Shown in pieces: positions 3,747 to 53,435 of a stretch of 64,000 nt of DNA. The first letter of the stretch is position 1. Each line of letters begins with the position of its first letter. Under the pieces are notes generated by a model, which saw only the letters and a list, made by a program, of their open reading frames with translations, was not told the DNA's origin and did no database searches. The stretch is taken from the NCBI RefSeq assembly GCF_030296675.1, contig NZ_AP027736.1, positions 1,798,001-1,862,000 of the forward strand. The letters run 5' to 3'. The position numbers and the translations under genes were made by a program. Source of the stretch: Demequina sediminis. Its GTDB lineage: Bacteria > Actinomycetota > Actinomycetes > Actinomycetales > Demequinaceae.

Positions 3747-3938
3747 ATGACACTCGCCACCACCGGCCGCTTCCCCACCGACCGCCCCGAGCGCTACCTC
3801 AAGCAGCTCGCATCGCACCTGGGGCGCAAGCTCGAGGTCGACAGCGAGGGCGACGCGGCGGTCATCCGGCTCGGGGAGGCCTCCGCTCGCCTCACGCCCG
3901 TGCCTGGCTCGGGCGCGGCCGAGCGCCAGGGCGAATAG
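3747..3938 (+). pseudogene. Truncated DUF2218-family protein
   Basis: 63 aa. The first ~45 residues match the N-terminal half of DUF2218 proteins ([18 protein letters not shown] is the family signature), but the family is usually about 90-100 aa and ends with a conserved RF..tvtW segment that is absent here. I could not find the missing part in the other frames of the next 100 bp, so it looks deleted rather than frameshifted. Good ribosome site (ACAGGAG) eight bases before the ATG. It may be a short functional variant or a remnant. Confidence 0.6.
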
Positions 3939-3970
3939 CGCGACGCACGTCACCTGGCTGTCACACGGCC

Positions 3971-4804
3971 GTGCGAGACTCGGCCGGTGAGCCCACCGTC
4001 CACACCCCCTCCCCACCAGCACCCTCCGCGCGCTCTCCGCGCCGCGCCGTGTTCGGCATCGGCGCCCAGCAATGGGCCGACTCCTGGGCCGGGCTGCGCG
4101 CGATCGCGCCGCTGATGCCGGGATCGGCGCTGTTTGGGCTCGCGTTCGGGGCGCTCGTGCGCGTGGCGGGCGTCGACCCGTGGGCCGGCAACTTCGCGTC
4201 CGTGTCGGTGGTCGCGGGCGCGAGCCAGATCGCGATCGTGGAGGCGATCCGCACCGGCGCGCCCGCCGCGATCGCCGTCATCACCGCGCTGGTCATCAAC
4301 GCGCGGTTCGCGTTGTATTCGGCCGCGCTCGCGCCGGTCTATGCGGCCTTTCCGCTGCGGTGGCGGCTGGGCCTCGCGCATCTCATGACCGACCAGTCCG
4401 CGGTGGTCTCTCTCGAACGCGCCGCCGACTGGCCCGACCCCGTGCGCCGGCGCTGGTTCATCCTGGGCGGCGCGCTGCCGTTTGTCGCGGTGTGGGTCGT
4501 GGGATCCGCGGCGGGCATCGCGCTGGGGCCCGTGATCCCCGATGCCTGGCAGATCGGGTTCATCGTGCCGCTGATGTTCCTCGCGGTGATGGTGCCCGGA
4601 CTGCGCAGCGCGCCGGCGCTGACCGCCGTCGCGGTGGCAACGATCGTCGTGGTCGCGGCGCGCGGACTGCCGTTCGGCCTCAACGTCCTCGCGGGCGCGC
4701 TCGCGGGCATCGCGGTCGGGTCCTTCGTGCCCGAGCGTCGCGCGGCCACGGCCGGGCCGGTGCCCGACGACGGCCTCGCTCACGACCAAGGAGCCGGCGA
4801 ATGA
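3971..4804 (+). CDS. azlC: AzlC family branched-chain amino acid exporter, large subunit
   Basis: About 277 aa from GTG 3971; GTG 4049, which removes a proline/serine-rich leader, is an alternative and would give a length nearer the family norm. Several hydrophobic helices are visible, including the conserved [12 protein letters not shown] and [10 protein letters not shown] region and the terminal [13 protein letters not shown] helix. AzlC and AzlD together export branched-chain amino acids or their analogues across the membrane. The TGA stop overlaps the ATG of azlD (ATGA), the usual arrangement for this two-gene transporter. Confidence 0.88.
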
Positions 4805-36045: not shown

Positions 36046-36122
36046 CACGTCACACATCTGGCGACACGTGGCTCGCGGCTGAACGGGGAATCCGACTCAC
36101 CTGGCCTCAGATGTGTGACTTG
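36046..36122. repeat. Dispersed palindrome-ended element family 1, copy A (gene-less)
   Basis: Left arm CACGTCACACATCTG (36046-36060) and right arm CAGATGTGTGACTTG (36108-36122): 15-bp inverted repeat with one mismatch, span 77 bp. Ends and part of the interior (GCGACA.GTG, GGGGAATCCG, ACCTGGC) match copy C at 53358-53435 in the same orientation. No gene is attached. It lies in the LacI-galT divergent gap (35922-36327), which otherwise holds the 15-bp array and the galT operators. Confidence 0.85.
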
Positions 36123-52273: not shown

Positions 52274-52351
52274 CAAGTCACACATCTGACGCCGGGTAGG
52301 CGCTGGTTTGTGCTCGCTTCCAGCGTTACGGGTCCCGAGATGTGTGACTTG
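52274..52351. repeat. Dispersed palindrome-ended element family 1, copy B (left flank of DUF559 gene)
   Basis: CAAGTCACACATCTG (52274-52288) and AGATGTGTGACTTG (52338-52351): 14-bp perfect inverted repeat, span 78 bp. Its interior start (CGCC..GTAGG) and right end match the reverse complement of copy C, so copies B and C flank the gene in inverted orientation. The gene-facing ends of B and C both carry the extension GTTCACAAGTCACACATCT, while the outer ends read CGCAAGTC. Confidence 0.9.
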
Positions 52352-52465
52352 TGAACGGGTACGGGCGGCGACCGCACGTATGCACAGGCTCGAGTCAGCG
52401 CCCGGCTCTCCACAGGTCTGGGTGGGCCGCTCGACGGTGACAGCTCGCGCCGACAAGGTCGGGTC

Positions 52466-53314
52466 ATGGACCTTGCGCGATTCGCCGCCTCGCTCGGAGG
52501 AACCGTCGAGCGCTCGACCTTCGCCGCGTTCGGTGTGCCCGGCACGGCACTGACCGCCGCCGTCCGATCCGGCGAGCTGCACCGCGTCCGCCGGGGCTGC
52601 TACACGGTTCGGGGCGCGGATCCCGTGCGACGTGCCGAGGTCGCGTGGCAGGGAACGGCCACGTGTGTGACCGAGCTCGATCGTCTGGGCCTGCCCGTCC
52701 CGCCTGCCGGAGGCCTCATTCACCTGACGCGTGGATTTCACCGCAGCGAGTCAGGGCGCAACCTCTCGACTCCGGCTCACGTTCGCTGGCACCTCTCGCC
52801 CATGGGCAGGCTCCAATGGGTATCACCCGCACTCGCTCTCGACGAGTCCGCGCGGTGCATCGGCCGCGTCGACCAACTGATCGCGCTCGATGCGGCCCTC
52901 GCGAAACGCACGGTCACTCTCGACGATGTCGCGGCGTTCGACGTGACATCCCGGCGCCGGCGCGACTGGCTCCTCGCCCTCGCCGACGAACGCACCCAGT
53001 CGCCTCCCGAGACGCTCGCGCGGGTGGCGCTCCACGCCGCGAAGATCCCGTTCGAGTTCCAGTACTCCTGGCCAGGCACCGGACGGGTGGACTTCCTCAT
53101 CGGCGGGCTGTTCGTGGTGGAGGTCGACGGGTGGAGCTACCACTCGGACGACTCGTCGTTCGGTCGCGACCGCGCGAGAGACAGGTCGACGCTCCTGTCG
53201 GGTTCCGCGACGATGCGCTACACCGCCTGGGACGTCATCAACCGTCCCGCGCTCATGGTGGATGAGGTGTGGCGGTTCCTCAGGATGCGTCGGGCCATCC
53301 CCAGGCCGGCGTGA
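52466..53314 (+). CDS. AbiEi-like / DUF559 endonuclease-domain protein inside repeat-flanked cassette
   Basis: 282 aa. N terminus: an AbiEi-type winged-helix region (GGTVERSTFAAFGVPGTALTAAVRSGELHRVRRGCYTV), then a linker domain, then a DUF559/Vsr-like nuclease domain with VDFLIGGLFVVEVDGWSYH and RARDR, which fits a PD-(D/E)xK core (Asp in VDF, Glu-x-Asp in VEVDG). It is flanked at 114 bp upstream and 43 bp downstream by inverted copies of the family 1 element. Such genes are numerous in actinobacteria and annotated as AbiEi antitoxin-like; no toxin partner is adjacent. A role in moving or processing the flanking elements is inference. Confidence 0.82.
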   Translation: MDLARFAASLGGTVERSTFAAFGVPGTALTAAVRSGELHRVRRGCYTVRGADPVRRAEVAWQGTATCVTELDRLGLPVPPAGGLIHLTRGFHRSESGRNLSTPAHVRWHLSPMGRLQWVSPALALDESARCIGRVDQLIALDAALAKRTVTLDDVAAFDVTSRRRRDWLLALADERTQSPPETLARVALHAAKIPFEFQYSWPGTGRVDFLIGGLFVVEVDGWSYHSDDSSFGRDRARDRSTLLSGSATMRYTAWDVINRPALMVDEVWRFLRMRRAIPRPA

Positions 53315-53357
53315 CGATGGCGAGAGTCTCTCGACGTGCAGCTCCCCACTGCGTTCA

Positions 53358-53435
53358 CAAGTCACACATCTCGCGACAGGTGAGCCGCGCATCGTGCGGG
53401 ATCGCGGACCTACGTGGCGCCAGGTGTGTGACTTG
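53358..53435. repeat. Dispersed palindrome-ended element family 1, copy C (right flank of DUF559 gene)
   Basis: CAAGTCACACATCT (53358-53371) and AGGTGTGTGACTTG (53422-53435), one mismatch, span 78 bp. The interior begins GCGACAGGTG and ends ACCTACGTGGCGC, similar to copy A in the same orientation. Together with copy B it bounds a 1162-bp unit. No T tract follows, so a simple terminator role is less likely. Confidence 0.9.

Follow-up and report, generated by a model that had tools for sequence, protein, structure and literature searches.

The Locus

The window, meaning the whole 64,000-nucleotide stretch of Demequina sediminis DNA analyzed here, carries an endonuclease gene placed between DUF3073 and purM and enclosed by two symmetric elements (Table 1). 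The left element starts 40 bp after the DUF3073 stop codon and ends 114 bp before the ATG of the gene, and the right element lies 43 bp downstream of the end of the gene and 35 bp ahead of the purM stop codon. A preliminary description of this DNA had placed the gene between two elements of ∼78 bp and had noted a gene-less copy elsewhere in the window, and both observations held. The right element had also been described as similar to the reverse complement of the left one; the similarity is real, but because both elements are nearly two-fold symmetric, the direct orientation fits equally well (55 of 79 and 55 of 78 alignment columns identical, one figure per orientation).

Table 1. Features of the locus (positions in the window)
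Feature	Position	Strand	Size	Remarks
Left element	52274..52351	.	78 bp	Inverted arms CAAGTCACACATCT / AGATGTGTGACTTG
AbiEi-domain / Vsr-EDxHD (MTES_1575, DUF559-like) endonuclease gene	52466..53314	+	282 aa	
Right element	53358..53435	.	78 bp	
Gene-less element copy	36046..36122	.	77 bp	Flanking genes divergent (simple gene model)

With up to two mismatches allowed, the window contains six matches to the arm CAAGTCACACATCT, which form three inverted pairs; shuffled sequences gave an expectation of 0.11 matches. These shuffles and a reversed genome-wide control, which gave 0 matches, ruled out a chance origin of the arms. Searched with Rfam at gathering thresholds, the window yielded four tRNAs only and no known RNA family at the elements.

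The Encoded Protein

The preliminary description had assigned the protein an AbiEi-like N terminus and a DUF559-like nuclease domain. Pfam supported the first part directly, with a match to AbiEi_4 (PF13338) at E = 7.8e-9; taken alone, it gave no nuclease domain, the MTES_1575 match (E = 0.012) falling short of its cut-off. The nuclease domain became clear through relatives and predicted structure. Among 54 family members at E 0.01, 53 matched MTES_1575, 47 matched AbiEi_4, and 43 matched DUF559. In an AlphaFold2 model built on these 54 sequences (mean pLDDT 93.5, pTM 0.89), predicted residues 1–174 resemble the AbiEi antitoxin 6y8q (Z 10.9 over 169 residues), and predicted residues 176–277 resemble the homing endonuclease I-Bth0305I (3r3p; Z 13.2, rmsd 2.3, 96 residues) as well as the DUF559-like protein 3hrl (Z 13.0) and Vsr (1cw0; Z 11.1). 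E182, D209, H226, D235, and R238 are invariant among the 54 relatives, and E219 and D221 are nearly so.

The low dN/dS of the nuclease gene, ∼0.19 between D. sediminis (G000) and D. maris (G030) and ∼0.10 between genomes G024 and G064, indicates retention under purifying selection. The dN of the gene (0.201) exceeds that of purM (0.075). NCBIfam offered no name for the protein, PADLOC gave partial N-terminal AbiEi matches only (best E 1.5e-5), and a phage family was rejected with a best match of E 0.27. A profile of five proteins searched against the contigs found nine loci, all in Demequina. Spread beyond the genus was seen in a separate homolog search among genomes, in which 14 of the 22 sampled genera of the order had homologs; the system may therefore be common in actinobacteria.

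Dispersed Elements in the D. sediminis Genome

Across the whole genome (2.705 Mb, one contig), a 13-base arm with at most one mismatch returned 33 matches, compared with 0 for the reversed control pattern. Elements of this family, which we call family C, occupy 18 places. We count 17 as independent, since the copies at C1:245616 and C1:247495 are one 178-bp direct duplication. At C1:899556, the second arm has decayed past two mismatches, and an arm-like match at C1:1610116 that has no second arm looks like chance. Fifteen of the 17 independent copies have no family gene beside them. A simple GC3 gene model places 16 of the 17 outside genes; the remaining one (L025) falls within a frame whose predicted start may be too far upstream. 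Neighboring genes are convergent at seven of the elements, tandem at four, divergent at four, and unclassified at two.

The duplicated copy belongs to a locus (L294, G000:C1:243500-251500) in which a DDE transposase gene (PF01609) lies between two direct repeats, 2027–2204 and 3906–4083. The repeats are 178 bp long and 99.4% identical, and each includes one element copy and is wider than it. IS1634-like elements are associated with a long target duplication, and by analogy, the repeats are possibly a duplication of this kind.

Pairing of Genes and Elements

The exact 14-base arm was found in 2 of the 59 genomes searched, those of D. sediminis and D. maris (G030, assigned to this species because its coordinates match). 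These two also hold the closest pair of genes (72% identical; the next homolog is at 47%), and in both, the gene lies between two elements and adjoins DUF3073 and purM. Where other Demequina species carry more distant homologs, the bracketing sequences are different.

For each family gene, the highest-scoring match of its upstream flank to its downstream flank was set against a cross-gene null, in which the 95% point was a score of 30 and the 99% point a score of 37. Among 72 Demequina genes, which include same-site orthologs and are thus not independent, 54 exceeded the 95% point (∼4 expected) and 42 exceeded the 99% point (Mann-Whitney p = 1.3e-34). The 72 were taken after setting aside two genes at contig edges (L088 and G028:C130), short or partial homolog matches, and, in D. 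sediminis itself, a split gene (L033/L034) and a fragment (L035). Control genes from the same genomes behaved differently: 0 of 43 DUF3073 genes and 2 of 23 purM genes exceeded the 95% point, and none exceeded the 99% point. Of the family genes, 18 were at or under the 95% point, some of them (for example, L074, G004) with a short-armed pair visible by eye. Outside the genus, in other families of the order, five of six loci exceeded the 95% point; at one of these five (L293, in G053), the flanks of the gene hold not single elements but tandem arrays with a unit of ∼50 bp and TCCGG..CCGGA symmetry. G024 has two family genes, each with a different element family. Because the pairing of gene and element recurs in other genomes, the elements are not unrelated to these genes genome-wide, and the 15 gene-less copies among 17 are no refutation, since a REP-like family predicts solo copies.

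Similarity of proteins and similarity of elements were correlated (Mantel rho 0.161, p = 0.0065), and the nearest protein neighbor was also the nearest element neighbor in 20 of 45 cases. However, all 15 of the similar-protein, similar-element pairs that were checked proved syntenic, their outer flanks being alignable. Co-divergence is therefore not independent of common descent, and the Mantel result is no proof of specificity.

The inverted arms, the location outside genes, and the D. sediminis copy duplicated around a DDE transposase gene are also what MITE-like, non-autonomous transposon copies might show if some other transposase had moved them and two had come to enclose the nuclease gene by chance. 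We consider this very improbable: one gene family is accompanied by differing elements at most of the 72 loci and also in further families of the order, and the stretch duplicated around the DDE transposase gene (178 bp) exceeds the element. A Y1/RAYT transposase (PF01797, IS200/IS605-like), the only transposase family searched for, was found in 0 of 8 element-bearing genomes, with the control positive in 5 of 14 named genomes, and a Y1/RAYT enzyme elsewhere in the genome was accordingly rejected as the agent.

Element Families in Other Genomes

Family A, defined by CCGCTCAACACAC with at most two mismatches, gave 14–29 arm matches in each of 6 of the 44 Demequina genomes (G015, G024, G029, G031, G033, and G064). 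None of the other 38 had more than 4 matches, and the reversed control never gave more than 3; G016 was kept out of the six with 4 matches, two of them in elements of equal spacing. G015, G024, and G064 each have a family gene with a family-A element on either side. In G031, G033, and G029, the homolog search matches placed no family gene beside family-A elements; either the gene was lost there or another agent keeps the elements.

Family B, defined by GAACCAATCTC, occurred in 13 of 44 genomes, most often in G063 (18) and G001 (9), with one match overall for the control; in G001 and G027, its arms stand on either side of the gene. Some of the matches returned for the family-A and family-B patterns are due to chance. 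Outside the genus, G056 and G038, from other families of the order, each have two elements of their own around the gene. The G056 element occupies 25 places in G056 and 0 in G038, whereas the G038 element occupies 15 places (30 strand-wise matches) in G038 and 0 in G056.

Element Shape

Searched with a tolerance of 7 to 13 bases either way, all 28 family-A copies have an arm spacing of 79, and all 26 family-C copies (16 in D. sediminis and 10 in D. maris) have one of 62 or 63; in 14 family-B copies, the spacing is 72–75. We then compared halves within elements with halves between elements. No excess half-to-half complementarity was seen in family A (z −0.6, and −1.2 once near-duplicates were removed), in family B (z −0.3, 9 copies), or in family C (z −2.2 and −3.3). 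The halves instead differ beyond expectation at particular positions (2, 20, 21, 26, 27, and 30 in family A; 22, 25, and 40 in family C) and agree beyond expectation at others (4, 6, 14, and 38 in family A; 34 in family C). Given the lack of excess complementarity and these position-specific differences, we read the Demequina elements mainly as two-fold symmetric duplex sites composed of two unlike halves. Family-A halves also have a 9-base periodicity, with a conserved G at positions 24, 33, 42, and 51.

The G038 element behaves in the opposite way. Its 14 copies have a clear excess of within-element complementarity (29.6/36 vs. 25.3/36), as would be expected for hairpins or for arms kept alike by conversion. 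Recognition of a hairpin, which the preliminary description had proposed, thus found no support in the three Demequina families, where arm covariation is absent, but the distant genome G038 does show such covariation. In 10 of the 14 G038 copies, CGTAT stands beside the center in exactly one half, giving the element a polarity despite its near-perfect palindrome. The G056 element is no strict palindrome, and CGGCGTGTC recurs in most of its copies by eye. The commonest 8-mer common to flanking elements, CGACACGC, was present at 22 of 50 genes, compared with 4 of 50 gene bodies.

Turnover of Genes and Elements

A family gene adjoins DUF3073 on the purM side in 13 of 44 Demequina genomes; in two of the 13 (G014 and G036), purM lies past the end of the stretch examined. 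The other 31 genomes have no family gene at the site, among them G013, where the contig ends, G060, which is ambiguous, and G062, which holds 1.1 kb of other sequence. Empty sites were thus found in relatives as anticipated, in most of the 31 gene-less genomes, but an insertion that is recent and specific to this strain was not: a homologous gene stands at the same site in 13 of 44 species. Close pairs of genomes can be unlike at the site, the gene being present in G024 and absent in G064, and present in G004 and absent in G063. When homologs from other genomes are ranked by similarity to the window gene, the top nine all occupy the DUF3073–purM site, and for this reason, an old resident that was lost repeatedly seems no less likely than repeated gain. 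Symmetric sequences of other families were seen by eye at the otherwise empty sites of G061, G020, G011, G029, G031, and G033.

At the purM site of G023 (L106, ∼1690–2140), two symmetric elements enclose a truncated gene start of which ∼28 codons are recognizable; this is evidently a decayed unit. These paired elements and the two whole elements that flank intact genes recall a selfish homing-type gene, in which an element would be cut and repair would copy the gene between two elements, with solo elements arising by recombination like solo LTRs. The predicted nuclease structure is, moreover, closest to the EDxHD homing endonuclease I-Bth0305I, which, according to a review (PMC3943268), dimerizes on a target site almost 60 bp long. 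We nonetheless regard a homing-type gene as quite improbable, because one gene copy is found against many solo elements (for example, in G000, G015, G038, and G056) and conversion of a solo element into a gene-bearing one was seen in no comparison between sister genomes.

Element positions differ almost entirely between D. sediminis and D. maris. We compared the 18 element loci of D. sediminis with the 10 of D. maris, taking 3 kb per locus and blastn matches of >150 bp, and the gene cassette was the only common locus. One further pair has a common neighbor gene with the elements at different points, and one 152-bp match is the element itself. At one D. maris element, the corresponding D. sediminis intergenic region is 77 bp shorter and element-free. 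Similarly, one G024 element with its surroundings (167 bases) corresponds to 2 bases in G064; when three G024 loci and one G064 locus are left out, these two genomes have one more element locus in common, plus four further. Neither of the two presence/absence cases (G030 vs. G000 and G024 vs. G064) is a clean single-element insertion, and no target-site duplication was seen by eye.

The nearly complete difference in element positions between D. sediminis and D. maris weighs against the proposal that the elements are host regulatory or chromosome-organizing sites (a regulon or nucleoid sites) bound by AbiEi, with the nuclease doing something else and moving no elements. Element length is kept (spacing 79, or 62 or 63) while interiors vary, family-A elements persist in genomes without a family-A gene beside them, and AbiEi proteins bind inverted repeats and autoregulate (PMC7319586), all of which would suit such sites. 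Yet 7 of the 15 classifiable D. sediminis elements lie between convergent genes, a poor position for an operator, and the catalytic residues of the nuclease are conserved; on balance, host sites of this kind are an unlikely explanation.

Interpretation

The explanation that we favor, with a probability of roughly 0.6, is a two-part intragenomic system in which an AbiEi-Vsr/EDxHD nuclease gene is joined with two-armed elements of ∼75–110 bp that serve as its private recognition sites. In each chromosome, one pair of elements encloses the gene, and roughly 5–23 others stand elsewhere without it. The partnership between gene and element is itself well supported. As to mechanism, binding to the arms would fall to the AbiEi domain, in keeping with the known binding of AbiEi to inverted repeats. 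The nuclease domain would nick or cut the DNA at the element or next to it, after which repair or recombination could duplicate elements elsewhere and keep the copies similar. A dimer on the two arms, with its nuclease domains over the interior, would be the natural model, and the upstream element copy may double as an operator for the gene. Spreading through break repair from another copy is our preferred guess, because the tyrosine-based chemistry by which RAYT acts is absent from this enzyme.

More broadly, we would give even odds to the proposal that AbiEi-Vsr/DUF559 nucleases are not parts of toxin–antitoxin systems and constitute a new class of enzymes that create and maintain their own dispersed elements and that arose separately from RAYT/REP. 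On this proposal, the AbiEi part would read an arm specific to each element family, and a core around GCGACACGCCG would be common to many families. If true, this would assign a function to genes that now mostly bear domain-of-unknown-function or antitoxin labels, and it would mean that a gene with its own dispersed symmetric elements evolved a second time around an unrelated enzyme. It would also make available many natural enzyme–site pairs in one genus, in which one could study how nuclease recognition changes together with all of its sites.

Comparison with Known Systems

The literature that we searched, which mostly excluded subscription journals and preprints, contained nothing linking DUF559, MTES_1575, or AbiEi nucleases to palindromes. 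Within that literature, the layout has a precedent in RAYT/REP, and we found none for the enzyme class; the system appears to be a novel type of partnership between an enzyme and a repeat.

The first 174 residues of the predicted structure are shared with the AbiE type IV toxin–antitoxin system (Z 10.9 to AbiEi). AbiEi is described as binding two 23-bp inverted repeats and Rv2827c as binding four (PMC7319586). Here, however, the AbiEi part is fused to a nuclease, and at the window locus, no AbiEii nucleotidyltransferase toxin gene stands beside the gene, whose neighbors are DUF3073 and purM. With EDxHD homing endonucleases such as I-Bth0305I and with Vsr, the protein shares its predicted nuclease fold (Z 13.2 and 11.1, respectively) and a long, nearly symmetric site. 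In contrast to homing endonuclease genes, this gene leaves its site uninterrupted, both flanking elements keeping both arms, and the window locus has neither an intron nor an interrupted host gene.

The parallel in layout drawn by the preliminary description, a nuclease-plus-element unit comparable to RAYT/REP (REPtron) but built on an unrelated protein, was upheld by the flank pairing and the dispersed copies. As in RAYT/REP (PMC2817692), the gene is flanked by two elements, gene-less copies are dispersed, and element sequences are specific to lineages. The two systems differ in their enzymes, RAYT being a Y1 HUH transposase and the protein described here a Vsr/EDxHD-type nuclease with an AbiEi domain, and in copy number, with ∼7–25 copies counted per genome here against usually >100 for REP (same source). 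The elements described here are 75–110 bp long, their flanking copies are direct or inverted, and three Demequina families are without arm covariation. Nevertheless, E. coli REP stems have conserved mismatches (PMC8266576), and these are comparable to the half-to-half differences in families A and C.
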